The notes beneath the pieces are model-generated. The model had not been told where the DNA came from. It searched no databases and saw only the letters and a program-made list of their open reading frames with translations. Below are positions 34,849 to 62,444 of a DNA stretch of 64,000 nt, one piece after another. A program made the translations under genes and the position numbers. Every line of letters starts with the position of its first letter. The stretch's first letter is position 1. Origin of the DNA: Fomitopsis serialis (Eukaryota; Basidiomycota; Agaricomycetes; Polyporales; Fomitopsidaceae); the NCBI RefSeq assembly GCF_022376445.1, contig NW_025955044.1, forward strand, positions 62,001 through 126,000. Reading direction: 5' to 3'.

Positions 34849-34849
34849 T

Positions 34850-36760: not shown

Positions 36761-36764
36761 CGAT

Positions 36765-37460: not shown

Positions 37461-37464
37461 CCGC

Positions 37465-38250: not shown

Positions 38251-38252
38251 TC

Positions 38253-40876
38253 ATGTCGACCAATGCCGGGGCACCAAGCCACCGCCAATCCATGTCGACC
38301 CACAATCACGGCTTGCGTCGCGAGGTATCTCGCTTTCTGGACTTGGAGGCAGCATTGGATAGCGATGAAGGGGAAGGGGACGAAGATGTTCTGGAGGGTA
38401 TAGAGTTATACACTGACCATTTCCCCCCACTTACTGACGTGCTAGTAGATAACTTCCTTGACGATCAAGCACTTGACAATTGGCCATCAGCCAACCCCTG
38501 GCCGGAGCAGGAGATGGAAGACGCTCAGGAGGAGAACTCCAGGCTGTGTTCTTTGGCACAATCCTACGTGCATCGAGCCACTCTCGGGAGAACTCTTGCT
38601 TCGTTGTCCGAACTTGGCATCCCATTGGATGCTCGGGGAGGGCCTGCTGACGGCCAATGCATGATGAAGGTTCAAGTGCTCGTAAGTACTAGCCCATGGG
38701 GTTCCAGCAAAGCAGCTCACAAACAACGCTTAGACTGGCGACGCCATGTGCTTCCTCGTATGGCTTTACAATCTCGCTGTATTTGAGGATACTTGGGCTA
38801 TCCTATCAGCATCCGTGCTTGCTGGGAACGTCTGCTATGTGGAAGCCAATTCACCAACAGGCATACGTGAAGCTCTGGATCTCGCAAAAGGGGAAGGATA
38901 TCGGTTCCGGACTCAGCTCATTGAACCGGGTGATTGTGCCTCTATCTTCTCTCGGCCGCCCGTAAGCTTCACCTCACGTTCCTGGGCTTCATTGCGACGG
39001 GGACGTTACAGAGGTGATGCAGCATATATCGAATATGTGTCACGGGAGACGGCAAAGGCCACGATCTGGCTCATTCCTCGACTGGATCTTCGCCCGCAGT
39101 CTGAGCGTAGGGCAAGAAAGCTGCGCGGCAGGCCAGCTCAAATCGCATTACGGACCGAGATGGTGGAGCAGAGTTGGGGAGCGGCGGTTGTCAGAGATGC
39201 CCTAGACAAGGAAGCGTTTTTCTTCCAGAACAAAATGTTCAAGGCTGGTCTCATGCAAACAGAGGTAGAACTGGACTGGCTATCTCCCGGATACAGCTAC
39301 AACCACTTCACCTACTGCCACTTCAAGGCCGCTTCCCAGATACCGCGTCAACTCATTTCCGCATTTTACTCTCAGGCCGACACAATTGCTCTACAAATTG
39401 GTGATCGAGTCAAGATCACCCTAGGCGAGCAACAAGGCTTCACGGGTAGAGTCCTCGACGTTAACGGGGATACTATTCACATATGTGGAGACAATCCCAA
39501 GCTTCCTGTTGCCGCCTCTGCACTTTCAAAGTACGTTGGAAGGGATTTCCGCGTCGGAGATACTGTCAGAGCAGTAGACGGAGTGTTTGTGGGGAAGTGG
39601 GGGATGGTTACGGACGTTGGCAATGGTCATGGCCTGACCTTCATGCTGCCACATAGTACAACACATGTGCGAACATTCCATGCGCCTACGCAGAAACTTA
39701 AAGGCACTGATACTTATATTTTGAACTCAGGTTACCGAAGACAAGCGACACGTGGAGTTCTACGATCCACCTCCTGGTTCTGCTCTCCAGTTAGAGGGCG
39801 ATGTATCAAGCACCACGCCCGTCTAGCTTCAGCACCAAACATGACGGGATACCTTGTCAACGTATCAAAACTGCGTCGCCCGCGCGATCATTGTGTTGGC
39901 CGGCGCGTCCAGATCCTCCAGGGCTCCTTCAAGGGGTATCGTGGTCTCGTCAAATCAACGTCAAAAGAAGAGCACTATGTCGTAGAGATGGATGCTCCGC
40001 GGGGACGATACGAGACCTTCCATTATACACATCTCGCATACGTATGGTACGTGTGCCAGTCTACATATGTAGGAGCAATGTTCATTGAGCACAGGTTCAA
40101 TGGTGCCCTGGTGCCCCTGGATGATACCGCCCCCGTAATTGGAGATATTGAAGATCACGGTCATTGTCATACTGAGAAGGTACAAGAGGTACCATCAATC
40201 CCCCAAGATTCTCTGTGTGACGTGGACAAGGACTCGGGTATGTTTGATTCGCGCTTTTTTCTCATACTTACCTCATACCGTCAACATCAACGGGAAAATT
40301 GGCATTGCTTGCTCTAGTCAACACGCTCTCTGTGTCAAGGGATAGTCAAGCCAGTCCACCTGCCAACCTGTTCAGCATCAGTGCGTACAATGGGCCATCT
40401 CATCCGGAACCAGGTGAGCGCTGCAGTATACTGAGATGATGTTTTCCTCACTGGGTACTACAGAAGGACCATGTGCTTGGCTATTCGATGCCGAATTGCG
40501 GGGAGCGCTACAGCGCAATCCTGTGATGCTGCGTGTCGACAACCACAGCAAGGATACTGATCTCCCTGTTGGATGGAAGGCCAGAGTAGTCAAGACCGAC
40601 CCTACGGATCTCCTATCAACTTCCAACAATGTTTGCAGAGTGAAAGTGCTCGACCCAGTGCGCCCACGAATGGGATTTGGTCTGATACCGGTGCGGCATC
40701 TCATTGCAATGCCTGCGAAACCTTCTAAGTCTGTGCTGGTTTTCCGTGGTGAGTCTAAGGGGTTGATTGCGAAGGTCCGGAGGATGGATCACAACCGTAA
40801 TCTAGTCTATCTGTATTCGCCTCCTTCCACTGCAACCACCATCGAAACTTTGTCCCATGTTGTACCACTCGCGTAA
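38253..40876 (+). CDS. SPT5-like protein with NGN-type and KOW domains
   Basis: Seven exons: 38253-38681, 38734-39666, 39731-39776, 39833-40046, 40095-40237, 40318-40413, 40464-40876; sum 2274 nt, 757 codons plus stop, all joins in phase. The N-terminus has the SPT5-like EVSRFLDLEAALDSDEGEGD acidic patch. An NGN-like segment reads NVCYVEANSPTGIREALDLA. KOW-type segments follow: WASLRRGRYRGDAAYIEYVS with WLIPRLDL, DRVKITLGEQQGFTGRVLDV, FRVGDTVRAVDGVFVGKWGM, GRRVQILQGSFKGYRGLVKS and, at the C-terminus, KSVLVFRGESKGLIAKVRRM. Canonical SPT5 with SPT4 clamps RNA polymerase II and promotes elongation. This protein is shorter and lacks the C-terminal heptapeptide-like repeats, so it is probably a divergent paralogue. 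The intron at 39777-39832 uses a weak gttctg donor but is needed to skip an in-frame TAG. Confidence 0.8.
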
Positions 40877-40879
40877 TTT

Positions 40880-43021
40880 CATTGTATCAAAACTGGTGTA
40901 CACAGATCTCATCACATCTTCCTCGCACACATTCCATTATCAAGGCCGTCAATACGGGTAACAAAGGAATGGTACAATATTAATGTTTCCGGGCCAGTTA
41001 GACCGAGACGAAAGGGGATAAATGGTTGCAAGTTTCGGGCGCCTGTTACTGTGGTCGTGCCGCCACACATCAGATTATTACTCCTGTGTACCGTCATTGT
41101 CGCCACAGTCTCCCTCCAGACTGTCCGGTACATGCACAGTCAGCGGCAGTACATTGCTGTCCAATGCGATGAGTTCCGACGACGGGACCCCTTTCGCGCA
41201 TCGTGCAAGAGATGGGAATACATAGACGCCTTTTCAGTTCTTTCGGTCAATGGCGATAGAGTATCTACGGTTCATTACTTACCTTGCAGCACACGCCGCA
41301 GTTCCTCGCTCTCCACCTCCACTGCTCCACGTCCACTTTCCACGCTATACTGTCTCGTAGCGTATTTGACCAGCTTCTACCCGTCTCTGGCGTTCCAATG
41401 TACTACGACGACGGTGCATACATCAATATCTTCGGGGATGCCATTCAAGTCGCCACAATGCTTGCGATCAAGTCGAGCATGATCACTCTGTTCGCGCCGT
41501 GGCTAGATCGCGTAGTCGTACAGTTTGAATTCCATCCCGATCCTGTCGGTGAATGTGTGGTCACTTGTGATTCATCGTCAGTACACTTTTGAGTCGACCG
41601 GCGCTGAAATCGACCCACGCTGAAGTCGAGTCGGAAGAAGAGAGATTCTGTTCCAAATTTGGCGGTGTGACTAGCAGCGGGATTCGAAAGTCCCCAGGTT
41701 GAACGTTGAGTACTGAGTACTGAGTACTGAGTCCTCAGGCCTCAGGCCTCACGCGTGATATATCGTGACGACATCTCTATTCCTGCTCTCGCTCTCACTG
41801 GGTCCAGTCACCTCGACGACTTCTATGTAGGCTGCGCACGTCTCAGGTTTGAGGTTCCCGACGAGTAGGTCAATGTAGCTCCACTGGCAGACAGACGAGG
41901 TACTGATTTGAGTGACATCGGGGCCACGGGGTCCTAGCGACGGTGACGAGCGCATCCGCACAGGCAGGACGGGACAGCGAGACTTGCGGCTACGGCCGGA
42001 ACCCGGGACGCATCTCGTCGTATCAGCGGGCGGTGGGTCCACTGGCGACTGCGTACTAGGACGTCTCGCATAGCCAAGAGTCCGCCGAGCACAGTCTGAC
42101 TCGGAGGGCCGAGCTCACTACGTGGATACGATCTTGGCTGAGCGACCACTCGACACGGCGAGGTGAGGGCGGTCGACATGCCTGGGCGTGGGGTTGGCGT
42201 GGGGTGCTACGTCGTTGAAATTGGGGACGAGGCGTCGTGGACAAGGCTCCGCACTCGCCGGCTCAAGTTCCGTTGAGGCTGACGGAGGATGCGCAGTATA
42301 CGGACAGTACGCATTGCACCGGCATCACGGAACGTGCACGTAGTCTACGCATGAGGCATGGGTCATGACATCAAGATCCCGGGAATTTGAGCGACGCAGG
42401 TCCCAAGTGTCTGAGGAACTCGGAGGTTTGGTCGAGACGGGAGGGCGTGTCTGAGTCAAGCGTACTGCGTTCGCGTGGAGACCCAAGCGTCTCTCGAACA
42501 TGCACCCGTAACGAAGGGCATGGTGAGGTGATCCCTGGAAGTGAATCTCTGAGTTGGGTGTGCACAGGTGGGGCGCACGCTGTCAGGACGAATCCGGCTT
42601 GCATACCGGCATCCTAGCGCGCCACGCCTTGTTGGTCGTCCGTGAGCGAACCGCGATCGATATATATTCACGAGGTCATTGGATGGAAGGCGAGCTTAAC
42701 TCAACCCGAGCGTCGCGGCGCCGAAGACGGTCCAGAAATCGGATACAGCAACGATGACGTGCATACGCAACAGCGCGACCCAGCTGCGAGAAGCATACAC
42801 GACGGCGGGAACCCTCGCTCGACGAGAACTGGTCTCGTTCAGGCTGGCCGGGTAGCGCGCCGCCGATGGGCGGAGTAGTGTCAGCATTGATATTGAGCGC
42901 GGAGTAAGTACGGCCAGGGGAACGCTGGGTGACGGGATCTGACTGGAATTGGGCGTCGGGCATGGCGGCCCGGGCGAGTCCGAGGCGCGTGGCAAAATCG
43001 AACCTGGGACGTCTCGCCAAC
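40880..43021. other. Unassigned 2.1 kb
   Basis: The plus-strand frame at 41284-41592 (SVFDQLLPVSGVPMYYDDGA, YINIFGDAIQVATMLAIKSS) is protein-like but not recognised. 41707-41750 has a tandem heptamer (TGAGTAC, about 3.5 copies) followed by CTCAGGC copies. Sequence from 41750 to 43020 shows only short ORFs on both strands. Confidence 0.35.
41707..41750 (+). repeat. Tandem heptamers TGAGTAC then CTCAGGC
   Basis: tgagtac repeats about 3.5 times and is followed by about two and a half copies of ctcaggc. A short slippage-type microsatellite in non-coding sequence. Confidence 0.8.
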
Positions 43022-43780
43022 TTCCCCCAACTTCCCTCCTCCTCCCCCCTCTGTGGGCACTCGATACTCCGAGCCTCGCTAGAGTGCCGCCAGGCCCCTC
43101 CGCAGCCCTCCTCCGCAGCCCTCCGCCGCCGTCCTCGCGACCGCATACCCGAGATGACGATGCCCGCCTGCTCTGCTCGGCGGGCTGACGCATTGGAACG
43201 ATTCCAGGAGGCTTGCCTCCCTGGATGACGTCCGCCGGGTGCGAGCAACCGTGGGTTGGACGCCTATCGCCGCTCCCCCAACTTCCCTCCTCCTCCTCCC
43301 CCCTCTGTGGGCACTCGATACTCCGAGCCTCGCTAGAGTGCCGCCAGGCCCCTCCGCAGCCCTCCTCCGCAGCCCTCCGCCGCCGTCCTCGCGACCGCAT
43401 ACCCGAGATGACGATGCCCGCCTGCTCTGCTCGGCGGGCTGACGCATTGGAACGATTCCAGGAGGCTTGCCTCCCTGGATGACGTCCGCCGGGTGCGAGC
43501 AACCGTGGGTTGGACGCCTATCGCCGCTCCCCCAACTTCCCTCCTCCTCCTCCCCCCTCTGTGGGCACTCGATACTCCGAGCCTCGCTAGAGTGCCGCCA
43601 GGCCCCTCCGCAGCCCTCCTCCGCAGCCCTCCGCCGCCGTCCTCGCGACCGCATACCCGAGATGACGATGCCCGCCTGCTCTGCTCGGCGGGCTGACGCA
43701 TTGGAACGATTCCAGGAGGCTTGCCTCCCTGGATGACGTCCGCCGGGTGCGAGCAACCGTGGGTTGGACGCCTATCGCCG
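43022..43780 (+). repeat. 254-bp tandem repeat, three copies
   Basis: Units 43022-43272 (251 bp, lacking one tcc triplet), 43273-43526 and 43527-43780 (254 bp each). Units 2 and 3 appear identical. Each unit starts ctcccccaacttccctcctc and ends ggacgcctatcgccg, and contains an inner near-palindrome ccaggaggcttgcctccctgg. 254 is not a multiple of three, so the reading frame rotates between units; the long ORFs over this array (225-268 codons on the minus strand) are periodic artefacts. Near-identity means recent expansion. Confidence 0.92.
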
Positions 43781-43859
43781 CCTGGATTGCGGATTAAGTA
43801 CAGAAGAACGTGCGCCGCAGGTCGACAAGGACATCATCTCTCACCACACTCCACGGAGG

Positions 43860-44440
43860 TGCCCGGGATCGGCCTTGCGTGAGGTTGTCGACGACTGTGC
43901 GCAGGAGACTAGCTGTCTTCTAGAACTATATCGTCGATGTATGTTGAGATCGACCGGCTGCGCTTGTTCCTTCACTTACAGCCCGTTTAGGGCCAACAAC
44001 ATGTATGAGCTGGCGATTTTGTGGCTCTGCAGACGATGACCAGCGCCCTCACCTACCTCAAGATCGAGAAGATCGGCGCGCAGAAGGTAATCAGTCGTGC
44101 AGTTTTACCATCCGCATCCTGACAGTGTTTGCAGTCGACGAAGTCCACCTTCGATTGAGGGAAAGAGATGCCCAGCGAGATCATCAGCTCGTGCTTCGCG
44201 AAGGCCAAACAGCTGCAAGTAACCGGGGGTTTCGTCAAGCTGGAGCGTGGCTTTGCAACTGTCCCTCTTCCTGGCATCGATGCGCCTCGCTGCCTCTGGG
44301 CCGGCGTCATACTTCAGAACATGTACGCGGCACTTATTTTCGCGGCTGTGCTGCGCTGATTACTCTCCTAGACCTCTTGAAGAAGATCAACGCCGCGCAT
44401 CTCAAGAGTTTGCTACGTACCTCGGGCTCATAGTGAGTGC
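43860..44440 (+). pseudogene. Fungal fatty-acid synthase MPT-domain fragment
   Basis: Frames give ALREVVDDCAQETSCLLELY, an intron ending cttacag, PV-stop-GQQHV-stop-AGDFVALQ, TMTSALTYLKIEKIGAQK, an intron, PSEIISSCFAKAKQLQVTGG, FVKLERGFATVPLPGIDAP, LWAGVI, an intron, KKINAAHL. The series VEGQQYVCAGEL.ALQ...LTYLK.EKIDIQK...AKQLQ..GGF..LERGFATIPLPGIDVPFHS..LW.GV..FR..L.KKI is the malonyl/palmitoyl-transferase region of the fungal type I FAS. Two nonsense codons stand where Glu and Cys are expected (TAG 43988-43990, TGA 44006-44008), and the PFHS histidine motif is damaged. Only about 150 residues of a roughly 2000-residue subunit remain. Confidence 0.85.
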
Positions 44441-46405
44441 TTGATCAATGATTCTCGCCCCCACCACTCCCCCATCTCAGATCACATGCTGGTGCTGCGA
44501 TATTGCGATGCCGCCGCTTCTCTGCAGCGTCGCGGTCTCGTCGAGGCTCGTATTCGACTTCCGGGTCATCGATACTGATCAGTCCATCTGCTCTTATACT
44601 GTTGATTGTCACGTCTACACGTCTTGCGCTGATCACAACCACGAATACGCTCAGCCTGAATAACCTCCGTGGCCTCCGGTGCCCCGCAGTAGGAGCTGCG
44701 TGCGGTCGGGAGCTTCCGCGCTGTATCCTTGGAGCTTCTGAAGGCCGCACGTCGCGCGCGAAGCGGAATCCGTGACTCCAGCATGTCTTGTGCTGCGTTA
44801 ATATCTGCGGCTGGACGCCTCCCAGGATAGATCTCTTTAGATTCATCGAGGACGCGCGTTCGCTGCCTTCGGCAGGTGCAGCACAAGTGTCACATCGGGC
44901 TCCTTGGGCGTTCGTCTCTTTGGCCTCAGGCCTAACCATCCAACACGAACACAAACGGGCGACTTATCTCTTCATTCTGACCTGGCTGAACTGACCGCGA
45001 CGCTGCAGCGCGGACCTTGTGCGCTACCCAACTCTGCGCATATACCCAGCTTGTATGCGACGTGGGTCTCGCGAGGCCGCTGACGGTCCTCCGCTCAACA
45101 AGCCTCACTTTGTACGTCATGCCCGGCGAGATTCTCTTCTAGCCGAGCAGTGGACGCGTCGCTCCCTGTTTGCCGCGTTTGTACACGACCTACAGCCATC
45201 GTCCGACCCATATGCAGGACGACTGGATGGAACACGCTGTTCGTCGATTAGCAACGCTCGCCGACCGCTGGGGACCCATCGCTTGCGAAGGACGTTCTCG
45301 CTCTAGGTCGCCATTCCGCGGCTCTTGTCGAGCAGCATTGAACTTCGCTTCTGCGATCGGGCGTGTGAGTGTCTCCTCTCGATAAGTAGTGCGATAGACG
45401 GTCGAACAGACGGCAACGTCGTGCTTCCGAGATCGCGTCTTAGCCCTCCCTCCGCGCAGATGGTGATTGCGTGGGTAGGGGTCTCGCATGAGCGGACGAT
45501 GCGCTGGCCGTATCTCCATGCAGGAGAGGACGTTACTCCGCCAACCTCATCGTACTCTACACATATGGAGCCATATCTTTCATTTATACTCAGGCGAGCA
45601 GGTCCGCTGTTAGCCCGTTGTCTCCCATGTCCGATCAGACAGGCGCACTCTGTGCGCGTACGCATTGTATGCTCTCGCCGTCGCCTGATCTACTGGACTG
45701 TGGCATCCTTTGTTTCTGAGAAACCCGAACCGCTTGCTATTACATAGTATCCTCGGCGTCCTCTGGGCACTGCGATATCCCGCATGATCCCTTAGTTCCA
45801 TCAAGTTCAATGTCGAGGACAGCCGCACAAACGTTTCGACGAAGGTCTACGTTGTGTAGGTACGTGAGTAATTCCATTGAGTAAATAACGACATTTACTG
45901 GCCCTGAAGCTCAGCATGCCAAGCATCCGTCCATGACGAATACGACCAGCGGGCCCAGGAGGTTGAGTGAAGGGACGTTGGCCTTCGGTACCGACTTTGA
46001 GTGTGTTTGCATTCTGGTCTTCTGCGCTTCGAACACTCCCTCGCATATGAGATGCGTTCCGTCACTGCGAGCTGCTCACGACCATGTATGCCGCTCACGG
46101 CTTCCACAGCAGTACCGTATAGCGGTGTCTCTGGTATGGGGTTTTCGAAGTCCGCTCGGCGTCAGCCGTACCGCTATACCGGCTGGATCGAGACTACCAC
46201 TCGCCGCCTCCAGCTACTTATGTACTTACTGGGTCGCTCAAGCTCCTCCACCACCCACCGCAACGTGCGTCGCTCGACTGTCGGTATGTCCTCTTCCTCT
46301 CCACTGCCACACCCCACCCGTACTTAACGTCCTCTCCCACCGCCCGCCTCCCCGACGAACACCCTCTCCGCGCAACTTCGTGACCGCCGACTTTTCCGCT
46401 GTGCT
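44441..46405. other. Unassigned 2 kb
   Basis: Only short ORFs, Arg/Ser-rich on the minus strand. No recognisable family, RNA gene or repeat. Confidence 0.3.
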
Positions 46406-46410
46406 AGTCG

Positions 46411-47837
46411 CCATGCCCGTTTCCGAAAAAGAAAGAAAACAACATCAAGGGCGGGCTCGAGGACTACGAGCGCGAGGACGAGGGCCGCTACCCCTTCCTT
46501 CTCAATTCCAGGGAGTGCACGCTTCTCGGCATCGCCGGCGTGCGTCGTACCTCCTCGATACTTTCGTGGCCCTCGCTCACCAGTCTCTCGTCTTAGGTCG
46601 GCTTCTTCCTCGACGCCTCTGACCTCTTTATCATCAATGTGTGCGTCCTTGCCCGCGCTGACCACTCCGCGCCGCTCACGCGACCGCCCGCAGCCCGTGA
46701 CTCGTGCAGGCTTTTCCTCAGGGATCTACGGATCGCACTCGCACCACGTACAAGGGCATTTGAGCTGCCTGTCTGGATGCTAGTCATCTCTCGAGCGACC
46801 GTGAAGTGTCATGTTCGTTATTGAGGTCCTCTTGTTGGTAATCCGTCTGGCACACCGGAACGTCCGCCACACGCCCTTCTTTGTGCAGCGCCAGCCGATG
46901 CGTACACACCTATCGTCTAATCCGTGCTTACATCTTCCTCCAGGCGATCTCTCAGCAACCGGGAGTATTATCTGGCACTCTATCTGGCACATCATCCTCG
47001 GGATAGGAATTGGGGGTGACTGCCCCATGTCCGCGTCCGTCGCGACAGACCGTTCAAGCCTCCGCCGGCGCGACACGCTCCTCTCGTACATCTTCGCGAG
47101 CCAGGGCTGGGGTTCGCTCATCAGGAGCTTGATGGTGATCATCGTGGTCGCGTTCTTCCATCACATCATGGAGGTCAAGGGCGAGACGTCCAAGGTCGAC
47201 AGCGGTGCGTATCCGCGGTCCGGTCTAGTTTACGCCAGTCTGATCCTTTTCGTGCGCAGTGTGGCGGTCGCTCGTCCCCGCGTTCGGCACGTTGTATCAG
47301 CGGCTCACTCCCAGACTCGCGGCGGTTCAAGGCGTCGCGGAGGGGCGTCGAGGCTGAGATGGAGTCGATCGATGAACTGAAAAGAAGACCGACGCGGACC
47401 TGGGCGCGCAAGAGTCCGTGCGGCCCGCGCCCGCCTCCTCCGAGACACCCTCGCCCACCTCGCTCTCGCCCGCACCCAGCGCAAACGCAGCCGCAGCCGT
47501 GCACGCGCAGCCCGCCACGAAGCGGGACCACTGGGCGGAGTTCTTCCACCACTTCTCCGAGTGGCGACACCTGAAGGTGCTGCTCGGGACGTGCGCGTAC
47601 TGGTTCCTGTTCGACATCGCGTTCCACGGGATCAACCTGACTGAGCTAGAAGTCCTACGTACTGCCACCCCATCATCTCCGCACGTCCAACTCACTCACC
47701 GACTCGATGGCACGGCGAATGTGCTCTGGATCCTCGCGTGCTGCATCGTCGGCGCGGGCTTCACGCTCCTGCTACCGGAGGTGAAGGGATACGATTCGGA
47801 TCTGGTGTATGCGGAGGAGGTGACGGAGGAAGAGTGA
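46411..47837 (+). pseudogene. PHO84-type inorganic phosphate transporter, internally deleted
   Basis: An ATG at 46411 is followed, after a one-base shift, by NIKGGLEDYEREDEGRYPFL, LNSRECTLLGIAG, a 57-nt intron, then VGFFLDASDLFIIN, a gap, IILGIGIGGDCPMSASVATD (sugar/phosphate MFS motif), RSSLRRRDTLLSYIFASQGW, GSLIRSLMVIIVVAFFHHIM, then degraded LYQRLT, and an Ala/Pro-rich loop leading to WAEFFHHFSEWRHLKVLLGT, CAYWFLFDIAFHGINL, and the end ILACCIVGAGFTLLLPEVKG, YDSDLVYAEEVTEEE and TGA. The order is that of the 12-TM H+/phosphate symporter Pho84. Most of TM2-4 and TM8-11 are missing, and frames change at least three times. Confidence 0.85.
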
Positions 47838-47896
47838 TAGAGGAGGGATGTAATTGATAGTTACTGTCTTCGAATATCTACGCTCCAGGCTAATTA

Positions 47897-47989
47897 AGGC
47901 CCTGTCCTGGTGTGTTACAGCCTCGATATTCTTATTCAAGAACATCAAGGAGCTGAACAAGGATCTCGATTCCGCGCTCTCTCCCTGAC
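47897..47989 (+). other. Short C-terminal-looking exon
   Basis: After an acceptor-like tgttacag the frame reads LDILIQ in one phase and SIFLFKNIKELNKDLDSALS in another, then a stop. It may be a leftover tail of another gene. No identification. Confidence 0.25.
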
Positions 47990-48040
47990 CGAGCTTTGCT
48001 CGTCACCGGCGGATCAACACAGCAAACCTTAATCGTGGGA

Positions 48041-48050
48041 ACTGTACAGT
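48041..48050. other. Perfect 10-bp palindrome near the left edge of the AT-richer island
   Basis: ACTGTACAGT, flanked by aatcgtggga and gtcagcctgc. It lies about 250 bp upstream of the OrsD/recombinase-like gene, where base composition changes. It may be chance or an element end. Confidence 0.3.
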
Positions 48051-48298
48051 GTCAGCCTGCCCTAAACTTGAGATGTATATATGTGTTCTGAGATCAACCA
48101 TGCTTCTCTTTTCTTCCCTCACTACTAGCCATCAGCCCTATTGATAAAATCACTGCATGTGAGTTAGTGTGGCACAAGTAGCATATCTTAGATATTCAAT
48201 CACCTTCATTGCCTTGACAGAAACCGAGAAAATGGAGTACATTATGCACATTCACAAACTTGTGCAGCCTATGCTGATCATCCCTGGACAGTGCTGGC

Positions 48299-51200
48299 AT
48301 GTTCAAAACCTTCTTCAAGGCTACAGAGATCATCTTTGATCCAGCATGGTCTGCTGTGCTACTGTTGTACAATACAGCACCAGAAGGAGGATTGGAAATG
48401 TCCTCTTCTTTCCATGTGTACTTAGATCTGATGTTGACACTTCTGTGCAGTGTTGAGAAGCCAAGTACAGCCCTTTCAGAGAGCCAGAAGCTCAAGCTTC
48501 ATAAAATTTTCAATGGATCAGAAGCAAAAGTTGCCTCATCTGATCTGCAATGTATGATTTCCTCAAATGACATGATTGGCTAGCCATATACTGACAATGA
48601 TGATTCACTCTACAAGACTTCCAGGATGAAGAGGAGATTGAAGATGAAGATGAAGAGGAACACAAGAAGTTGGAAGAGAAGTTTGAAGAACAAATTGAAC
48701 AGGATATTGAAGCCTCTGGACCTAATGTTGTCATGCAGAGTTCCTCAGGGCTTCAAGAGCTAGACTTGGAGTTTGAGTCTGCAGAAGATGATGAGCCAAT
48801 CTTGACTGAAACAAGTAAGTGCAATGTGCTTTGTCAAGTATCCAACAGTTGAAACTTGTACTTTTCATTCTATCAGCATCCAAAGTGTTCAATCTACATG
48901 CATATGTGTATGTTCCATCACCTCCATATGACTTGTCTTCTGTGATGCTGTAAGTCATACATTGTCCACATAGTTTGAGAACTCAAAACACTTCAACCAC
49001 ACAGTTATACCAATGACATAGAGGCAGATGAACTGACCAGTCATTCAGATTCAGGGTCTAACCTCATCAGCACAGACATATTATCATTATGGGGCCTCTG
49101 CTACAACATCCAGTGTGGGCTCTTGATATGCAAGCCTTGCCAGCAAGGGATGCCTCTCTCTCTCATGCATACCCACCTCACTAGGCAGACTTTGACTATA
49201 TATGAGATGAATGAGGACAAGGGCTATCAAGAGCTTAAGGATCAAGAGCAAGGGCACAGGCTGAGCATTGGAAATCGAACTGCCTTCATTAAGACAGTGA
49301 AAGAGGAGTTGATGAAGTGCAATGTGAACCCAGACTCTATCAAGGACTCTGCAACAGCAGATAATTGGAGAAAACTGAAGCTGAAGCCAGATGCTGACTC
49401 ATCAGGGTTGTCTGAGCCTATTGAAGGTTTGAAGATCTACCCCAGGGCTTTTTGCTGCAACCTATGTTTAGGGCAGAACAAGCAACCTTTCTGTACCATG
49501 ACTTCCAAGACAATGAGGACTCATAGGCAACATCAACATCCAGGCTGGAAACAGATATCTGGAAATAGACCTAAAGTAGTTGATACAGTTGTCAGATGTT
49601 CAATCCAGGGCTTTACTGAGGCAAATGGATGGGTCTGTTGGTTTGCTGTAAAAGATCCAGTCCTCTCTGAGACCAATCATGTTGCCAACCAATTGACTTA
49701 CTCCAGTGCTGCAGAATACATCAAAGCACAGAAGAGACTTTTGTGGTCAGAAGATGACCCAACTGTCCTTAGAAAGACTTTGGATGACAGATTGTATTTG
49801 CCCTTCCTGACTTCATCAGGAATTTTGGAGTTTACTTCATCCTTTGATCATCAAAGGTTACTAAGCCTCTTTGTCCCTGAGAATGTAAAGGATGGACCAG
49901 TTCAACTCAAAAGACTAGCTAAGGTTGTCAGAGATACTTTCTGGAATGGCTGTAAGATCATCAATAAGCAACATGCTTCTGTGCGCAAGGGAATTATGGG
50001 AGACTCAGGGTAAGTGGCCTGACCATCACAATAACAATAATCATCAGGCTGACTGCTCTTGTCAACAGGGTAAGCAGTGGCAACAGTCAATTCACAGCTC
50101 CCATTTCTGAGGACACCTGGGGAAACTATGCTACTGTGCAGTTGCACTTCTTGTGGGCTAATTTGCAATACTTGAAGGATCCATTGCAAGCCCTTCAGCA
50201 ACCAGATAAGAAGCTCTTCATTTATAACCAAAAGCAACAGACTGCTTTGGAAAATTTGCAGGCTATCTTGGACCATAAGCAGTTTTCTGAGGAGAGAGCT
50301 ACACAGGCAGTCTATGCAACCCTCCAAGCTCTGTATTTCCCATCAAACAATGACCCTGCTGCAGTGAACATCTTCTGCAGCCCTGTCATGGTGTTCCTAG
50401 CTTGCAGAATGTTGAGTCCCACTGGTGGCCATGTTCCTCCAGCTCAAGTCCCTCCATTGCTGGCTAAAGTTCAGTTTGGTATGCGCCTGCAGGGCCTGTA
50501 CCACATTGCATCAAACCTGCCCATAAGCTCAAGTGAGGAGCACAATGGTGATAATCAGTGGTGGAATTGGGTCACAACATTCTTGTCAGAGAATTTAAGT
50601 GAGAACAATCTGTCACCATTTGCAAGTCTCAGAGATTGGATGCACAACTTTACTAGGATAGTGCACCAGATGCCAAGACCAGGCACAATCTCATGGCCTA
50701 CAGGGGATACATTGAGATTATCTGGGTACACTATCTCAATGGATCAGTATAAGATGGCTGTGTGCTCTGCCTTGGACTCTCTTGAGGAGTTCATACAAAA
50801 CAAGGTGCTCCTTGGAGTGGACCTGGAGGCTCATGGCATCCACTGCAACTTCTATGAAATGCCAGATGTTGATGTGGAGACAATTGGTTCTGGTCCTTTC
50901 TCAACCCCTGATGCTGTGTCCTTGGATAATGCTGCTTCTGATGCATTCATCAATGCTGTCATGGCAAAGTCTGATTTTCTGGGGAATTGCTCAGCAAATG
51001 GCATCACCTGGAACACTGAACATGTCATGGAATGGCTGTCAGAAATTTCCAATGCATGGCTAGAACTGCAGCCATTGATTCATATGACTCAAGGGCTCCC
51101 AGGAAGAGCAACAGAGGAAGAAAGGACTAAGATAGTTAACACTGAGGAAACAAGGAGGCATTTGTTTGTTGACAAAGACCTGGGTACCCTGGTATTCAGG

Positions 51201-51803
51201 CCCAACTATCACAAAGGTATGCAAAGATACTCATACTCTTCATTGCCACTCTGACTGATATCTCTCATAGGCATCCATAGGTCAGGAATTCATAAGAACA
51301 TCATCCGGGTCATACCTCACCGGATTGCCAAACTAATGTTCATCCTCCTGCATATTGTAAGGCCACTTGAGCTACTGCTCATAGTGAGATATCTCAGTGA
51401 TCCAGCCAAGAAAGATCAGGTCCTCCAGGTCTACAAGGAGAACCTCTATGTTTCTCTTGGAAAAGGCTGGGACCATGTGATGCTCTCCAAAGCCCTTCAT
51501 AGGTGGACAAAACATCATCTTGGCTTTGGGATGGGTGTTAGGGCATATAGGCACTTTATCACTGCTATTAGCAGGAAGCAGCTTAAACTCCCTCAGTCTG
51601 CACTTGATGTACAGAGCTTTTCACAAGCTGCAGATCTAATGGCTGGACATTCTGTGAAAGTTTCTGAACAGAATTATGCAGTGTCTCAAGATACGCCCAC
51701 CACTTCTGCTTCATCGGATCACTGGTTCATTGCAGTATGTCAAAGCCTCCATTCATTCTTAGGTCTAGAGACTTCACCTAGCAAGGGACAATCCAGTAGC
51801 TAG
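48299..51803 (+). CDS. OrsD-type Cys/His-finger protein with C-terminal tyrosine-recombinase-like domain
   Basis: Six exons: 48299-48551, 48617-48814, 48877-48949, 49005-50009, 50069-51216, 51271-51803; sum 3210 nt, exactly 1069 codons plus stop, all joins in phase. Residues 85-160 are an acidic coil (QDEEEIEDEDEEEHKK). OrsD/DUF3505-like fingers: C217-x2-C220 with H230/H232 (GLLICKPCQQGMP, HTHLTRQ), and C326-x2-C329 with H348/H351/H353 (CCNLC, MRTHRQHQH). A long helical middle has no named domain. The C-terminus resembles a tyrosine recombinase: R923 (IVRPLELL, box I-like), R986-H987 (GVRAYRHFITA), H1019 (LMAGHS) and Y1028 (SEQNYAVS), with the usual spacing GHS-x(8)-Y. Such finger proteins are linked with subtelomeric RecQ-type gene families in basidiomycetes (from memory). 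Codons are A/T-ending, unlike neighbours, suggesting separate origin. The start could lie farther upstream. Confidence 0.75.
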
Positions 51804-51990
51804 TCCTGCATGTAGGTTGAGCCTCCGTGATACAATCAGTCCAGTAGTTGTATATATAGTAATTTTGTGGAATAGATACAGATTGTGATACACTTGCTGC
51901 TTTGACAATATGAGATTGATATACTGCCATGCTGTCAATCTGTCAGACAAGCCTACCTCACATAGTCACCTTTCAACATAGACTGCTCTG
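51804..51990 (+). other. AT-rich 3' flank of the island
   Basis: Contains tatatatagtaattttgtgg and similar AT-rich sequence, plausibly 3' UTR. At 51983-52011 ctgctct pairs with agagcag around a short loop, near where GC-rich sequence resumes. Confidence 0.35.
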
Positions 51991-53685
51991 CTCTTAACAT
52001 GCGTAGAGCAGACGGATCACATCATGTGTCATCAGTACAAGGCCACATACTATTATATCAAGCAACTGACAGCACACCAGTATCCAGGGTGCTGAATGAT
52101 GCTGCAGCCACTCTCGCATGTCAGACTCGGCGGCGTTCAGCTGTCGACGACAGCCGAGACAGCCCTCAGACGACAACAGGTCGCGAGCAACGGTCTCGGA
52201 TCCCGCTCGTGCATTCTGGCCGCCGGATGGGGTGACAGCCGTGTTCGTGCTTGGGGCCTCAGCGAGTTCGAACACCATCAGCTGAGGGAATAACCATATG
52301 AGTGGGCTTCGCCACTGCCGAACATGGCGACTGACCATGACACTTGCAGCACTTCACGCGCGCACGGTCCCTACCAACGCGAACACGCGCAGGTGATCGC
52401 GAAGGGCCGGAAATTTGGCCGCCATTCGCTGCGGACCCGGACGACAAGCGACATTATTATCTGATAGGGACGACAAGTCCACGTTCCTTAACGGGCATCG
52501 TGGACAGGCAGGGTGACAACCACTCACCGAAACATCCCGCGGCACGCGTGGTGTTACCAAGGGTGCTGAGAGGCTGGACGCGAGTCGAAGACATAGTTTG
52601 CAGGGTCAGCATGCCTATACGTCCGATCCGCGCTATGCATACTCACCGGTCAGGGCAGTCTGATCAGTTGGGCTAGGCGTTGCCCAGTCAACCTCACACT
52701 GCGTCATGGCCACAAAGCATGACCCGCTGAGACATGGACGGACATTGAGTGTCGCGCGTGTACGGACGCTGGGTGGATGGTTCGCGTCGACACGCGCATG
52801 GGCTGGAAATACAGTGAGCACTCTGGAGGCGCTCGGGAGGTGCGATGTGCTCACGAGCACCTCGAGGATCATCATGCTCTGTTGGTCGCTATGCACACCT
52901 ACTCGCCGGATGCTGCGGACATGTCCCCGCAACTCAAGACGTCATGCAGGGCCGGTCAATCTGTGTCCAAGCGATGCGGACGGCGAGAGACTATCCACAG
53001 CATCGCATCACCAGGTAGGTGGACAGGCGTCGCAACTCTCTAGGCCGATTCTGCACACGATGCCACGGTCAGGGCAACAGACGAGGGCCCGCGCCGGATG
53101 ATACACTCACCGCAGGATCCTGTGGAGTCTCCAGGACAACACATGGATGGTGGAGGGTCGCAATATGGCAGACAGAGAAGGACAGTGTAGTCAGCGCGTG
53201 TCTGCGTCCGATCCATACTGTACGTGCTCACCGGTAAGTCGACTCATGCGGGGACTTGCCCAGGGCACGGATGGCGGCCGGGCGTGCTTGACGGTAAGGC
53301 GGCCTCAATGGGTGACGACTCAGACGAGTGGACAGAACCACCGGGACCCGGGCGCACGGGCACGCGGAATTCTGGACAAGAGGTTCAGTGCTCGCACGAT
53401 GCATGGTTGAGACATGGTCACGTACCATGACAGATCGTGGGCCCTCGATAATGGAGAGCGCAAGCGATGCACGCACGAACATTTTTGGAGAGAATGTGTA
53501 CGCGGCGACGACAAACCCAACACAAACATGCTCGTTTTGATGCAGGGTATGAAGGGCCTCACCGGACAAAAATAACCCGACGTACGTACGTTGATTTTGG
53601 TGTTGTTTTTCGAGCGTTGATGCTGACGTTGCACCATACGTACGTTGATGTTGGTGTTGTCGTTCATGAGTTGAGTTGTTTGCAG
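51991..53685. other. Unassigned 1.7 kb
   Basis: No family recognised. Several short motifs recur: cgtccgatcc-(g/a)-...-ctcaccggt at about 52620-52655 and 53205-53235, and a GENVYAA-coding stretch at about 53490-53515 shared with about 24460. The missing N-terminal CRAL-TRIO exons of the Sec14 gene should lie in the last part but are not recognisable. Confidence 0.3.
53580..53665 (+). repeat. Direct repeat, about 28 bp, two copies 55 bp apart
   Basis: acgtacgttgat(t/g)ttggtgttgt(t/c)(t/g)ttc occurs at about 53582-53609 and 53637-53664 with related spacer sequence (a roughly 55-bp tandem duplication). It sits just upstream of the Sec14 exon acceptor. Confidence 0.7.
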
Positions 53686-54356
53686 ATGTGGTTTCACAGG
53701 ACAGACAAGGAGGGTCGGCCGGTGAGCATCCAGCAGTACGGCGGGGTGAACATCCCGGAGCTCTACAAGCACATCACGCCGGAGCGGTTCTGGTGGTACA
53801 TCATCACGATGTCGGAGAGCATACCGCGCGAGATCATACCCACTGCGTCGCGGGCGGTGGGTCACCAGGTCGACGGGACGTTCCTCATCGTGGACTTGAA
53901 GGGATATTCGTAAGTCCATCATCTGAGTGCCGCGGGCGGGCGGGAGAGGGTATCTGATGCGATTCAACGTCAGGTTGGGTCAGTTCTGGCAGATGAAGGA
54001 CCTCGTACGCGCTTCGTTTCAAGTCATGCAAGACCACTATCCCGAGATGTACGTCTCGCCCCGCTCCTTCCACACCTGACCTGCTCGTCTCACCGCCCAT
54101 CGCCCCAACCCCGCACAGGTCCGCGAAGTTCTACATCATCAACGCGCCGTGGTCTTTCACCACGATCTGGTCGCTCCTCAAGCTCTGGCTCGCCCCGCGG
54201 ATGATCGAGAAGATGGACATCCTCGGCGCGGATTACCAGGCGGTGCTCCTGAAGTATATCGACGCGGAGAGCTTGCCGACGTTCTACGGGGGACGATGCG
54301 AGTGCAGCGAGGTCGGCGGGTGCAAGTGGAGCAAGCCGATGCGAGATGGGAGGTAG
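53686..54356 (+). CDS. Sec14-family CRAL-TRIO lipid-transfer protein, C-terminal half
   Basis: Exons 53686-53909, 53974-54048, 54119-54356, total 537 nt (178 codons plus stop), all in phase. It begins MWFHRTDKEGRPVSIQQYGG right after a tttgcag acceptor, so the ATG may be internal. Signatures: NIPELYKHITPERFWWYIIT, ASRAVGHQVDGTFLIVDLKG, LGQFWQMKDLVRASFQVMQD, YPEMSAKFYIINAPWSFTTI, WSLLKLWLAPRMIEKMDILG, LLKYIDAESLPTFYGG, CECSEVGGC. These are the lipid-binding CRAL-TRIO fold including the (D/K)G.G gate and the YP(E)..... NAP.(S/F)F motif. Sec14 exchanges phosphatidylinositol and phosphatidylcholine at Golgi membranes. The CRAL-TRIO-N helices are not found upstream, so the gene is probably 5'-truncated although this half is undamaged. 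Confidence 0.8.
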
Positions 54357-54359
54357 CAT

Positions 54360-54984
54360 ACATACTGTATTGTATGCGCGTCTTCTGGGAGTCATAATCT
54401 CGGGCTAGGACACCTATGCTAATGGTTCTGCGCATATGGAGGCATAGTAGGGCTACGCAACGGATGGACTCGAACGCAGTGTTCAATTGCTTCCGGCAGC
54501 CATCCATAGAGCGCCGTCGCGTCGCGCCTCTACGCCGAGATGCCTCTCCGGAGCCAGTGAATCGTGATGAACGCGGTTGTGAACTTCTGCGAGACAATGC
54601 CCGGCTGGTTATTGTTTTCCTCGCGTCCAAGCATCCTGAGGGCCCAGCACACTTCCAGTTGGTCTATCAGCCCGAGAGATTTGCGAAGTCGAGTCTTCTT
54701 GACACCATACAGTGCGAACGGAGAGCGGTTGCTCATAACGTTGAGAGGTGCCGGAAGGAATCACTGTTTAAAACCTCGAGTATACGCAGGCTCAGGCAGC
54801 GGGGCCGATGGAAGCAAGAGGCTGAAAGCGGTGATCGACGCTCGCGCCGGCCCTGGCGGAGCGTGACTGTGGCGGCGCCTCGCGTGTTGTTGAACTTGTT
54901 CTTCACAACCATCGTACACCTCCAGAACTGTGATACTTACCTCTACACGTCGAGCTGTACGTACGAGTGCGAGACTAGGTCTAA
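54360..54984. other. Unassigned stretch
   Basis: Plus-strand ORF without motif; likely spacer between the Sec14 gene and the convergent iminopeptidase pseudogene. Confidence 0.3.
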
Positions 54985-56100
54985 TCAGTTGAGTGTTATT
55001 TCGTCAGACTCGGAGTGCCAGCTTCTGTCAAATACTGACCGAGCTACATAATAATATGCAACAGGAGCGAACGCGACCTTACGCTCGAGTTCCCGGGCCC
55101 AACAGTTATCGAGTTCTGCTCCGGTCCCCAGAAATAGTTCACGAGTAACATTCTTATACATCATGAAGCCCTGCATCTTGGAGGCTGATCTCGACTCCAT
55201 ACCGAATGAACTTACGAGGGCGTTCAAGGACTGCGCAACAACTTGGAAGTACCGCTCCGGCTCCTCGAAGAACGCTAGGTGAGAACTCTTCGAGGACTGC
55301 GCCCACTTCGCCTTCGAGATCTGCCAGAACAGAGGGCCGACGACAAAGTTTCTCACCTCATCGTCTGCGCCATTTATCACCAGCGTCTCCTGGGAGATCT
55401 TGTGCAGGTCGTCGAGCATCGACCAGGCATCGACCAACTCTTGATGGTTCCGGTGATCTAGAACTCGGATGCACCGTTCCTGGACACAGTTAGCAGTGGA
55501 TGGTGAGTGCAGAGCATCACCCCACATGATCGAATACAACGTAGGGCCTTCCTCCTTCGCGCGGAGCGTTTCCTGTGCCAACTTGGGGACCGGGACGACT
55601 TGACTTTACAGCTCGCGAAAGTCCCATCCCCTTCCTTGACTGTCCGTCGTGCCCTCCCTTCAATCTCTCCGGCGTCTCTTGCACATCGTTCGGCACGCCC
55701 TTGAGCAGCTCCTAGGCTAGTCTATTGCCACAGCTCCATCGGCAACGGCGTCCCTACCAAGACCATCCGCTTCAGTCCCTCCTTCGCGAGCCCGTGAGCG
55801 TCATGCCCTACGAATGGCCACACAAGTCGAAGCTCTCTGCAATCCTAAGCCTCTCGACGAGGTTCGCAAGCGCCTCGGCAAACAGCTGTACTCTCCAGAA
55901 CTCCTTCGGCCTCTTGCGGAGGTGCGTGCTCTGCCCGATGCCGAGCTGGTCGTAGCATATGACGGGGCACGTTCTATATGTAGCTCATAGTGCGTCGTCA
56001 TAACTTGATGTCCGAGGCCAGGCCTGCCGGCGGCCGTGTAGAACGAGGGCTGTACCACGTCTGGTAGGTCTTGCAGCTGATCGTGAAGTCTTGTATTTTC
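54985..56100 (-). pseudogene. Proline iminopeptidase-like alpha/beta hydrolase, disabled
   Basis: The minus strand shows QLGIGQSTHLRKRPKEFWRV, QLFAEALANLVERLRIAESF, DLCGHS-stop-G (nucleophile elbow GHSWG with Trp replaced by TAG at 55808-55810), later LLKGVPNDVQETPERLK. Then a 198-codon open frame contains EEGPTLYSIMWGDALHSP, LVDAWSMLDDLHKISQETLV, INGADDEVRNFVVGPLFWQI, KWAQSSKSSHLAFFEEPERY and FQVVAQSLN. ADDE carries the catalytic Asp context and SSH.(P/A)FFEE the catalytic His. The stop at the nucleophile elbow plus frame changes upstream remove activity. Active relatives trim N-terminal proline from peptides. Confidence 0.75.
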
Positions 56101-56785: not shown

Positions 56786-58540
56786 ATGTCTGCCATTGAC
56801 ACTGCGTTGACGGGATATGCCAGGTATGATCCCAGCCCAATCCAGCCTATCGCAAGCCACTCCTCAGTGACAATCGCCCCATTCCAGCTCCGTTCATGAT
56901 TACAACGCCCTCGCCACAACGGGTACGTTTCGAGTTCATGTTTCGGTACACGCCCTGATGACTTCATTACTCTCGCAGTGCTGCTCTGTTATGACTGTCT
57001 CCTGAATCTCGATAGAGAGATTCCGCTGATCTGGTCCCGGAGGCCGACAATCATCTCCGTGTCTTATGTTCTCTGCCGATATTCCATGGTGCTTTACGCA
57101 GTCCTAGGCTGGGTATCGTCTTCGTCTAATTTGGTACGATAGCTCCGGTGTCCACCTCACCGGAGGTCACTCCTAATACTACTTTGTAAACGTACGTTCG
57201 ACTCCATTCTACGTTCACCTCACTTGTGCTGAACAACATCGTAGATGTACAGCCGTATCGAACTCTCGGCATGTCCTTGGTGTGCTTTTCTCTCCCGTCG
57301 TAACAGGTGTGCTCTCAGATTCGTCTTGACCACCACGGATGCTGATCAATCTGACTAGTTTCTGCATATGTCAAAGTCTATGCTGTCAGTAGACGTGACT
57401 GGGGGTGGACGTCCATCGCTGTTATGCTGGGGATTGTCTCTCTCGCCACACATATCGTAAGCCTTCCCGGCATCATTAACTCGGCTTGCTTCATCTTCTC
57501 CTAGTTTCTCTATGCGATATCCACCTTCAAGATAGCCACACTTCCCGATTTCGTAGAGTCTTGCATCGAAACGAGAGGTATCTCCGATGTCGAATTAAAG
57601 AGGTGCGCGTCATTATCGATTGTTCAACCCTTTATATATGAACCGGGACAGATGTGAGCCTCTGTCAAGCTACAGTCTCAACTCTGACCTGATTGTCTGC
57701 ATAGTAATCATTGCGACACGCATATGCGCCATCACGTCCGACCTCACCGTAATTGCAGCGATAACATATCACACGAGAGGGCAAGGGATCCTCAGTCAAG
57801 GCCTGCCCCAGAGCAGACCGTCACTCGTACTCCTCATACAGAGAGACGGTGAGTGATGCTCGGCAGCTCAGGAGAACGAGCCTTCGCTGATTGTCCCAAT
57901 TAAGGATTTGTGATGTTTGTGTAGGTGCTAAAGGGAGCTTTCGATGGCTTTAGATCGACAATGATGATGTGTCTAGGTTCTTCGCTGTCCTCAATATATT
58001 CGCCGTTGCCCTCTACTTCACAGTAGTAAGCATCTACGCTCGTCCGTCACTTAATCATGCTGACAACAGCCGCCATAGCCGTACGGCTGGGCCTTGACGA
58101 TATTTGTTGACCCGTGAGCTTCGCTGCGCCGATACCGCTTGTCTATAGATCTGACATCCACTCATTGCGCCATCTCCATCATCATCTCACGCAGCGTCTT
58201 GCGACTCCTGGCAGCGACCAACAACAGCGTGCCAGAGGACAGCGATGACATCGAAACGCTCCACTTGTCCTTCGTCCAACCAGAACAGCTGCCCACGGAG
58301 CTGTCTAGTGTGGTCCACTACACCGCGAACGTGTTCAATGCAGTCGTCTCGCGAATTTTGGCAGAACCGGACGATGTGGAGGACACTACGCTTGCCCCGA
58401 CTGATAGTTCATGCGAACCCCCGGAAGTGAACGGAGATGGGTGCACAGCAGGTGAGTACAAGCAGCCTACGCTACCGATTGATCTGACTACTGTTATGGC
58501 GCATCTAGAGAGGGATGAGGTCGAAAGGTACTCGTCATAA
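56786..58540 (+). CDS. DUF6533 multi-pass membrane protein
   Basis: Exons 56786-56823, 56888-56922, 56979-57133, 57245-57299, 57359-57456, 57505-57602, 57652-57848 join in phase; the remaining exons to 58540 are less certain. The N-terminus reads HDYNALATTVLLCYDCLLNL, DREIPLIWSRRP, then SVSYVLCRYSMVLYAVLGWV: the D.LLT...E...IW.R....... L..RY signature of basidiomycete DUF6533. Further hydrophobic segments: SAYVKVYAVSRRDWGWTSIA, VMLGIVSLATHI, DLIVCIVIIATRICAITSDL, TVIAAITYHT, FFAVLNIFAVALYFTV. A TAG after AKGSFRWL (about 57950) needs either an unidentified intron or is a lesion. The C-terminal tail is acidic (SVPEDSDDIETLHL). About six or seven TM helices; the function of the family is not known. 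Confidence 0.65.
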
Positions 58541-58544
58541 GGCA

Positions 58545-59165
58545 AGTAATATATGCGCTATTCCGTCTCGGCGTCCATTCGGCAATGCTGACGTGGACTG
58601 TACGAAACTTAGCTGAATTGAATTCGGCGGGAGCTGTACGTTAGTATTCTCAATTGCATTGATATTGTATGTTTGAGGTACGCCGGTTAGGTTCTGCGAT
58701 GCACTGAGGGCGGCTCCTGGGCGGCTCAGCAGTTGAATATGATGCGCAGATGTGGTGTGGCATTGGTGACTCAGACGCCAGACCGAAAGGCTCACAGGGT
58801 TGCTCTGAAGCTTAAACAGCATATGGCACGCAGCCTAGAGCTATGTGGCAGCACGTTTACGTGCTGGACGGTTCTCGCCACTCGGACCTCCGAAATGATG
58901 TAATCGTTATGCGTGTTCACTATTACTGCATTGAACAAAGTCGTCCGGCTCAACGTCGACGTGTCCACTGTTGTACGCGTACGTGTCCGGAGCCTGCTGG
59001 TACCGATTAGGGACTAGTGACTGGTTGACCACTCGCTGTATCTGTGCCATGCAGGTTGGGAGGAGGCGGACGCGACCACGTGATACTTATGTAGTCGCGG
59101 TCGCTCAACCGAGCCAACGGTCGCCTGAACCACCACCAGCGCATCTGCATCCTTCAATGCAACTC
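58545..59165. other. Unassigned stretch
   Basis: Short ORFs only. It contains the promoter side of the kinase-like gene that starts at 59171. Confidence 0.3.
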
Positions 59166-59170
59166 TCACT

Positions 59171-61271: not shown

Positions 61272-61304
61272 CGGACTGTTCATGACATTCGTATATACAG
61301 TAAA

Positions 61305-61340
61305 TTGACAGGTTGTTTGACATGTCGTCTGACAGGTCGT
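61305..61340 (+). repeat. 12-bp tandem repeat, three copies
   Basis: ttgacaggttgt, ttgacatgtcgt, ctgacaggtcgt in tandem just after the kinase-like stop codon, followed by further degenerate gacaggt words to about 61372. Non-coding. Confidence 0.75.
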
Positions 61341-61374
61341 CGGACTCGGAGTCGACAGGTCACCTGACAGCCTG

Positions 61375-62095: not shown

Positions 62096-62099
62096 ACTC

Positions 62100-62440: not shown

Positions 62441-62444
62441 TCCC

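Follow-up and report, generated by a model that had tools for sequence, protein, structure and literature searches.

An intact gene in an AT-richer island

What kind of protein is encoded by the AT-richer island found at about 48-52 kb of this stretch of Fomitopsis serialis DNA, and does it belong to a mobile element? The window, i.e. the whole stretch of 64,000 nucleotides analysed here, corresponds to positions 62001-126000 of contig C790 (168,722 bases), in an assembly of 66.2 Mb and 806 contigs. An earlier note, made from the letters alone, had read in this island a gene joining OrsD-type fingers to a tyrosine-recombinase-like domain and had attributed it to a mobile or subtelomeric element. 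The residues conserved in its relatives, the architecture that it shares with OrsD-RecQ proteins and a profile alignment with XerD and phage integrases lead us to propose, with a probability of about 0.6, that the gene encodes a divergent tyrosine-recombinase-type protein of a fungal family resembling the telomere-linked helicases (TLHs); its mobility is unproven.

The gene is located at about 110-114 kb of the 168.7-kb contig. Its coding sequence is carried by the forward strand and comprises six in-phase exons (3210 nt); translation of the joined exons gives 1069 codons and a stop, without internal stop. Hence, the frame proposed by the earlier note was exact, the exons joining in phase without any lesion. 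Exon 1 (48299..48551) opens on the predicted start codon, exon 2 (48617..48814) encodes an acidic stretch and is followed by exon 3 (48877..48949), and exon 4 (49005..50009) holds both OrsD-type fingers. Exon 5 (50069..51216) may encode a core-binding region, followed by R856 (51105-51107) and K892 (51213-51215), and exon 6 (51271..51803) encodes R986 (51549-51551), H1019 (51648-51650) and Y1028 (51675-51677) and ends with the stop codon (51801-51803). The public model at this locus is an uncharacterized protein of 685 residues that leaves out the finger parts and stops before the domain encoded by the last exon. Relatives conserve the fingers as well as the C-terminal domain, which makes the six-exon frame better supported than this public model. 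A search with the full-length protein gave a single match among 7449 candidates, the gene itself.

A family of proteins with OrsD fingers, a shared domain and a RecQ helicase

The OrsD domain (PF12013) is found in the frame of the window gene as two stretches, with a score of 26.4 bits (E 1e-5) that is marginally below the Pfam cut-off of 26.6. The first finger (49054..49179, forward strand; C217, C220, H230 and H232) is matched by the finger region of the Rhodofomes roseus protein P0003 (tblastn, E 0.001), and the second (49354..49542, forward strand; C326, C329 and H348-H353) gives the strongest OrsD match (residues 126-188 in the frame that begins at 48979); the putative ligands of both were picked by eye. 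OrsD is also found in P0003 and at three other places of the genome, where the relatives reach 35.9 to 55 bits. The OrsD-type fingers announced from the letters alone are thus borne out, albeit just under the Pfam cut-off.

The C-terminal domain (approximately residues 822-1044; 51003..51725, forward strand, spanning the last intron) was delimited by a protein match to C762, by tblastn (E 1e-6) and by hhalign. The last exon matches two contigs of the genome, C643 and C762 (30% identity, E 7.5e-4), and residues 822-1044 match the OrsD-RecQ protein of C762 (26% identity, E 2e-12), in which OrsD-type fingers are followed by the shared domain and then by a RecQ helicase. Outside this genome, the named relatives come from Rhodofomes roseus, a polypore. 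One of them, P0003, combines OrsD (23.7 bits, below the cut-off), DEAD, Helicase_C and the shared domain, and two partial models, P0002 and P0004, have OrsD at 16.5 and 14.4 bits; furthermore, P0005 carries DEAD and Helicase_C plus the shared domain.

Matches to the helicase exon of C762 lie on C762, C50, C643 and C612, and also on C312 for its first 113 residues only, where the contig ends. More distant matches are found on C590/C490 and in a second gene of C612, followed by a weaker tail of helicases (35 rows). The C-terminal domain is common to the RecQ genes of C762, C643, C50, C612 (two genes) and C490/C590 and is also found in the C312 gene cut by the contig end. RecQ sequence thus accompanies the domain at seven of its eight loci in the genome, the exception being the truncated C312. 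In addition, all three OrsD matches above the cut-off (the three listed of six candidates scored) lie upstream of a gene carrying the domain plus RecQ. No RecQ helicase was detected in the 64-kb window, the helicase parts of five relatives giving no tblastn match at E<=0.01. OrsD plus C-terminal domain plus RecQ is thus the prevailing arrangement in the members identified, and the window gene is a form of the family devoid of helicase. The earlier note had not foreseen that the relatives are OrsD-RecQ proteins of the TLH type.

Two of the loci, L049 and L048 (C612 at about 53 kb and C490 at about 248 kb), form a second class (class B) of OrsD-RecQ genes, in which NH replaces GH. A domain profile built from P0005, P0003, C762 and the window protein, without any class B sequence, finds both of them (L049, 3.6e-16; L048, 1.5e-11). 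At C643:4098-10776, about 6.7 kb of other sequence interrupts the helicase part, which is uninterrupted in the C762 copy.

Catalytic residues of the C-terminal domain

Residues were compared in an alignment of eight sequences that includes two close pairs (L048/L049 and L029/L039). R856, R986, H1019 and Y1028 are invariant in all eight, as is the H-x8-Y spacing. The motifs AYRHF (R986-H987), AGHS (H1019) and NYAVS (Y1028) are all present as first described, and the proposed check of their conservation in homologues gave invariant residues in the eight aligned sequences; therefore, the loss of R986, H1019 or Y1028, which the earlier note had named as speaking against its own reading, was not observed. 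The arginine of box I was another matter. R923 (IVRPLELL), initially taken as this catalytic residue, is conserved, yet aligns with a 'VRP' motif located C-terminal to box I; by alignment, the box-I arginine is R856 (GLPGRATEE), with a glutamate at +3. K892 is aligned in seven of the eight sequences, at the place expected for the beta-hairpin lysine; the frame of the eighth, the C50 copy, departs there.

The first residue of HxxR is arginine in five of the eight sequences, including Arg983 of the window protein as had been noticed, histidine in two (P0005 and L049) and glutamine in one (L048). HxxR is intact in P0005 and L049 (LHDYRQ and LHYWRH). Some active tyrosine recombinases are known to carry other residues at this first histidine. 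Relative to the R-H-R-Y tetrad (PMC3212892), the window protein thus misses the first histidine and has Arg I, Arg II, the histidine of GH and the tyrosine, in this order. Moreover, among the 17 columns with an arginine in all three relatives, it has kept this residue in 6 of the 9 that lie at or after residue 850 and in 1 of the 8 before that point.

Domesticated tyrosine-recombinase domains are known, and it is conceivable, with perhaps one chance in four, that the domain, though of tyrosine-recombinase origin, now serves as a non-enzymatic DNA-binding platform, like Crypton-derived DUF3504 genes or Gcr1/Cbf2. The first histidine of HxxR is missing in six of the eight sequences, the window gene is single copy, its mobility has not been seen, and DUF3504 likewise lacks most of the tetrad, according to PMC3212892. 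However, the same article indicates that DUF3504 genes lost the catalytic tyrosine and the second conserved arginine, both of which are kept here. Furthermore, the tyrosine, both arginines and the histidine of GH are invariant across divergent paralogues, and the arginine positions of the family are best kept in the catalytic part. The chances that the OrsD-RecQ family includes active enzymes seem to us evenly balanced.

Comparison with XerD and phage integrases

The domain was compared with a profile of 43 sequences, i.e. XerD and 42 phage integrases (from 80 loci, 44 near-full-length sequences were picked by eye and two with stops were dropped). The catalytic part aligns with this profile with an hhalign score of 31.4 (E 7.4e-4) that none of 300 column shuffles reaches (best 23.5). 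The whole domain scores 28.45 (E 0.006), also above all of 300 shuffles made within blocks of 60 columns (best 25.04). When seven sequences were realigned at a low threshold (score 29.5, E 0.0014, probability 17%), five residues fell into line with their XerD counterparts in the same order: R856 with TGLR, K892 with the lysine of GKG, AYRH with HVLRH, and GH and the tyrosine of AGHS..NY with those of LGHS..IY. Removal of the XerD row gives 29.5, and the controls score 17.3 (helicase part of the fungal set), 15.7 (bacterial RecQ) and 18.3 (reversed columns).

Several results weigh against a tyrosine-recombinase-type protein. The hhalign probability is 26% at best, for the catalytic part, and 6% for the whole domain, and the score varies when the integrase set is halved at random (four halves: 17.9, 25.3, 24.1 and 30.9; E 0.1, 0.0075, 0.011 and 0.001). 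It also depends on the fungal subset, from the later ones of which L039 was omitted: class A alone gives 17.2 (E 0.11) by box I only, class B alone 21.6 (E 0.017) by the HxxR region, the window protein E 0.0085 with class A and E 0.063 with class B, and the window protein alone 13.4 (E 0.29) in a wrong register. The lysine column depends on the alignment and is lost in a second one of seven of the sequences. No integrase family was retrieved at E<=10 from Pfam or PHROGs for seven members: the sole PHROGs match is phrog_2079 (no name given; E 0.13, one of the seven) and Pfam gave an EspF repeat (E 0.022, two of the seven). No recombinase was found among PDB sequences by profile search, and PF00589 has no match in the genome. 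The AlphaFold model built from six sequences has a mean predicted local distance difference test (pLDDT) of 39.8, too poor for a fold to be read, and no recombinase appears in the titles of the 50 fold matches shown for it.

The domain might therefore be a helical DNA-binding part of OrsD-RecQ proteins that is unrelated to recombinases, its R, R, H, Y pattern being a coincidence, a possibility to which we give slightly less weight than to a domesticated, non-enzymatic domain. It would account for the failure to obtain a family, PDB-sequence or usable fold match and for hhalign probabilities that do not exceed 26% and are unstable between subsets. On the other hand, none of 300 shuffles reached the observed score in either of two tests, the catalytic residues pair in the right order unprompted, and class B has HxxRH in L049 and retains the H-x8-Y spacing in L049 and L048 alike. 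Descent of the C-terminal domain from a tyrosine recombinase is thus what we consider probable. The first description of the domain stands for its tyrosine-recombinase-like character (R, R, H, Y order, hhalign) and falls short by one catalytic residue. The searches retrieved neither a Starship captain nor a Crypton or integrase family, nor DUF3435 at E<=10.

A sharply bounded loss of CpG

The GC content of the four 1-kb bins of 48001-52000 is 0.42-0.47 versus 0.61 and 0.59 in the adjoining bins, in agreement with the lower GC first reported relative to both flanks. The gene and its short flanks lie within a CpG-depleted domain (48035..52001) that retains only nine CpG (48225, 49276, 49984, 50484, 51306, 51321, 51694, 51715 and 51826) between those at 48034 and 52002. 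The CpG observed/expected ratio is 0.07 in 48010-52080 versus 1.16 (44000-48000) and 1.08 (52100-56000) on either side, the ratios of TpG and CpA are both 1.51 in 48010-52080, and the other 1-kb windows of the 64 kb have CpG ratios of at least 0.75. The low GC of the island is therefore due to a near-total, sharply bounded loss of CpG. Relative to the numbers predicted from base composition, the coding sequence has 7 CpG instead of about 160, the five introns none instead of about 11 and the codon junctions none instead of 66. Five of the seven coding CpG lie in CGN arginine codons, and AGA/AGG account for 32 of the 37 arginine codons of the window gene; the proportion is 7 of 50 for the C762 helicase exon, 3 of 39 for L048 and 3 of 32 for L049.

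Replacement of CGN by AGR is beyond the reach of deamination alone and CGA may become a stop; therefore, either selection acted while CpG was being removed or the gene originated in a CpG-poor genome. CpG-poor stretches are found elsewhere in the genome, at C805:118826-120298 and at the edges of class B genes, which speaks for a local cause, for instance CpG methylation. Basidiomycetes are known to methylate CpG in repeats. The loss is best read as a long exposure to CpG methylation and deamination during which selection would have kept the protein. A search of the open-access literature for work on CpG depletion in basidiomycetes gave none.

In C805:118826-120298 (L034 7826-9298), 1.47 kb contain no CpG and include tandem-repeat-like frames; the best tblastn match of the window gene to it (E 1.8) is not meaningful. 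The class B loci L049 and L048 are partly depleted, with ratios of 0.75 and 0.68 over the loci and stronger depletion at the gene edges.

It is unlikely that we see here a dead or dying relic, in which a TLH-type gene, once deprived of its helicase, erodes by CpG deamination. Although the window contains no helicase, the CpG loss is extreme, the gene is single copy in mosaic surroundings and the public model of 685 residues lacks the domain of the last exon, the frame runs for 1069 codons without stop or frameshift, the arginines of the catalytic part are preferentially kept and the proportion of AGA/AGG (32/37) is out of reach of CpG deamination alone. Equally unlikely is a horizontal transfer from a CpG-poor genome, suggested by the sharp edges on both sides, the CpG ratio of 0.07 in a CpG-normal neighbourhood and a full-length search matching only the gene itself, since the same genome has other CpG-poor stretches and the named relatives outside it come from R. 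roseus.

Genomic position and mobility

Six of the eight domain loci (C312, C50, C762, C643, C490 and C590) are near contig ends and the two genes of C612 are internal. Only 2 bases separate the end of the C312 match from that of its contig, the C50 copy ends 2.5 kb from the end of its own contig, the fingers of C762 and C643 are encoded from about the first 100 bases of the contig, OrsD of C490 ends 1.6 kb from the contig end and the C590 gene lies about 13 kb from the contig start; C490 and C590 resemble alleles (99.7%). These locations suggest a telomeric position of the relatives, no more than suggested because repeats alone can break contigs. The motif (TTAGGG)2 is absent from the six contig ends inspected, i.e. 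the starts of C762 and C643, the ends of C50 and C312, and the first 6000 and last 8723 bases of C790.

The island itself is single copy, matching only itself in the assembly. A 7-bp direct repeat, CGGATCA, occurs at its edges (48010..48016 and 52013..52019) and may be due to chance; it was rejected as proof of insertion, since at least 7 shared bases were obtained in 549 of 2000 shuffles (27%). No long terminal repeats were found, the repeats of 47400-52800 being short: 14 two-copy families of direct repeats, one of them near both edges (12 nt, 92%, 48071 and 51846), and 20 inverted pairs, none at both edges. To the left, similarity to other places stops at 47862 (C181/C50, 81-86%); to the right, it resumes at about 53545 (a short repeat) and at 53682 (C472/C805, 86-94%), one 64-base match excepted, so the flank matches in the assembly reveal no empty site, excision or insertion footprint; C181/C50 and C472/C805 resemble alleles (94% and 95%). 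The surroundings of the island are a mosaic of paralogous pieces, which includes an inverted copy of 2.2 kb on the same contig (100%). Because no contig with at least 95% identity to 33000-42000, 44000-48000, 48000-52100, 52000-56000 or 57000-64000 was found among the best candidates scored, hemizygosity of the region is possible, as is a missing allele. The mobile or subtelomeric element initially proposed is therefore unproven, given a single copy, an edge repeat within chance, a location about 110 kb into the contig and no empty site.

Other features were observed around the island. The segment 44000-46196 is repeated in inverted orientation on the same contig at 100% identity, and 43001-46196 at 99.97%, with C790:46137-48333 and beyond; a 254-bp tandem unit is present in three copies matching at 99% in 43023-43781. 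The 137-bp repeat of 53546-53682, also found on C335, on C46 and elsewhere on C790 (84-88%), ends where the C472/C805 homology starts and is likely to be the end of a mobile element. Moreover, an open frame of 527 residues (38734-40314, forward strand) has SPT5-type KOW motifs (KOW, 47.5 bits; KOW5_SPT5, 42.1 bits).

Proposed function and significance

For a protein of tyrosine-recombinase type, the N-terminal Cys/His fingers of OrsD type would grip DNA and may choose the target site; they would be followed by the middle part and then by the C-terminal catalytic domain with R856, K892, R986 and H1019, where Y1028 would act as the nucleophile, cutting DNA through a 3'-phosphotyrosine as in XerD and Cre if the fold is the same. 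RecQ would open DNA in the fused forms, and the family may consist of selfish or end-associated elements that recombine or insert DNA. A bolder proposal, which we hold to be rather doubtful, is that OrsD-RecQ (TLH) genes are tyrosine-recombinase mobile elements with their own helicase, guided by their fingers to insert or exchange DNA at chromosome ends, the window gene being a helicase-free member that, having shed nearly all its CpG, evades silencing by CpG methylation and has kept its active site.

Telomere-linked RecQ helicase genes have been described at chromosome ends of several fungi in PMC4522978, PMC12857005 and PMC10532341. For instance, the first reports a low-GC subtelomeric RecQ family in Mycosphaerella graminicola, the second deals with TLHs with FoTeRs and contains the words 'recombinase' and 'OrsD' zero times, and the third mentions an OrsD domain and/or a conserved core in UTASb. 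Within the open-access literature, neither OrsD nor telomere-linked helicases were found together with a tyrosine recombinase. The combination of RecQ, tyrosine recombinase and subtelomere retrieved only unrelated work on Trypanosoma cruzi, and that of RecQ, tyrosine recombinase and Basidiomycota only PMC10799480, which is on another subject. Crypton together with RecQ helicase retrieved PMC4522978 and PMC3627910. A probable tyrosine-recombinase domain in the OrsD-RecQ family, unrecognised by Pfam and PHROGs and not linked to it in this literature, would hence be new, provisionally so because of this scope.

If TLH genes carry a tyrosine recombinase, this would provide a testable mechanism for their spread and copy number, and exchanges between subtelomeres could be enzymatic rather than passive. 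Furthermore, an intact and nearly CpG-free gene would offer a natural case in which to test how genes of fungi survive in methylated DNA or evade it.

Comparison with known systems

In Starships, which are large elements with cargo, one end is occupied by a captain with a tyrosine-recombinase domain, DUF3435; Cryptons are mobile tyrosine-recombinase elements in multiple copies with short direct repeats. The window protein would resemble Starship captains and Cryptons (for the latter, see PMC3212892) as a fungal protein with a tyrosine-recombinase domain, but it has no DUF3435 or integrase match at E<=10, and its island is a single-copy one of 4 kb without cargo genes in a basidiomycete host. 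With OrsD/DUF3505 proteins, it shares an OrsD match just below the cut-off; this Pfam name comes from a secondary-metabolite cluster protein and is uninformative about the C-terminal domain. The XerC/XerD recombinases and phage integrases (PF00589) have the same order of R, K, (H/R)xxR, GH, x8 and Y and give a collinear profile alignment; however, there is no family-level sequence match, the histidine of HxxR is mostly absent and OrsD, often with RecQ, is joined to the domain. Unlike the TLHs (UTASa/UTASb of Ustilago), the window gene has no RecQ helicase and is located about 110 kb into a contig, and the six ends examined have no telomere repeats; it nevertheless resembles them by its OrsD fingers, by the RecQ helicase of its relatives and by the position of six of the eight loci of these relatives near contig ends.

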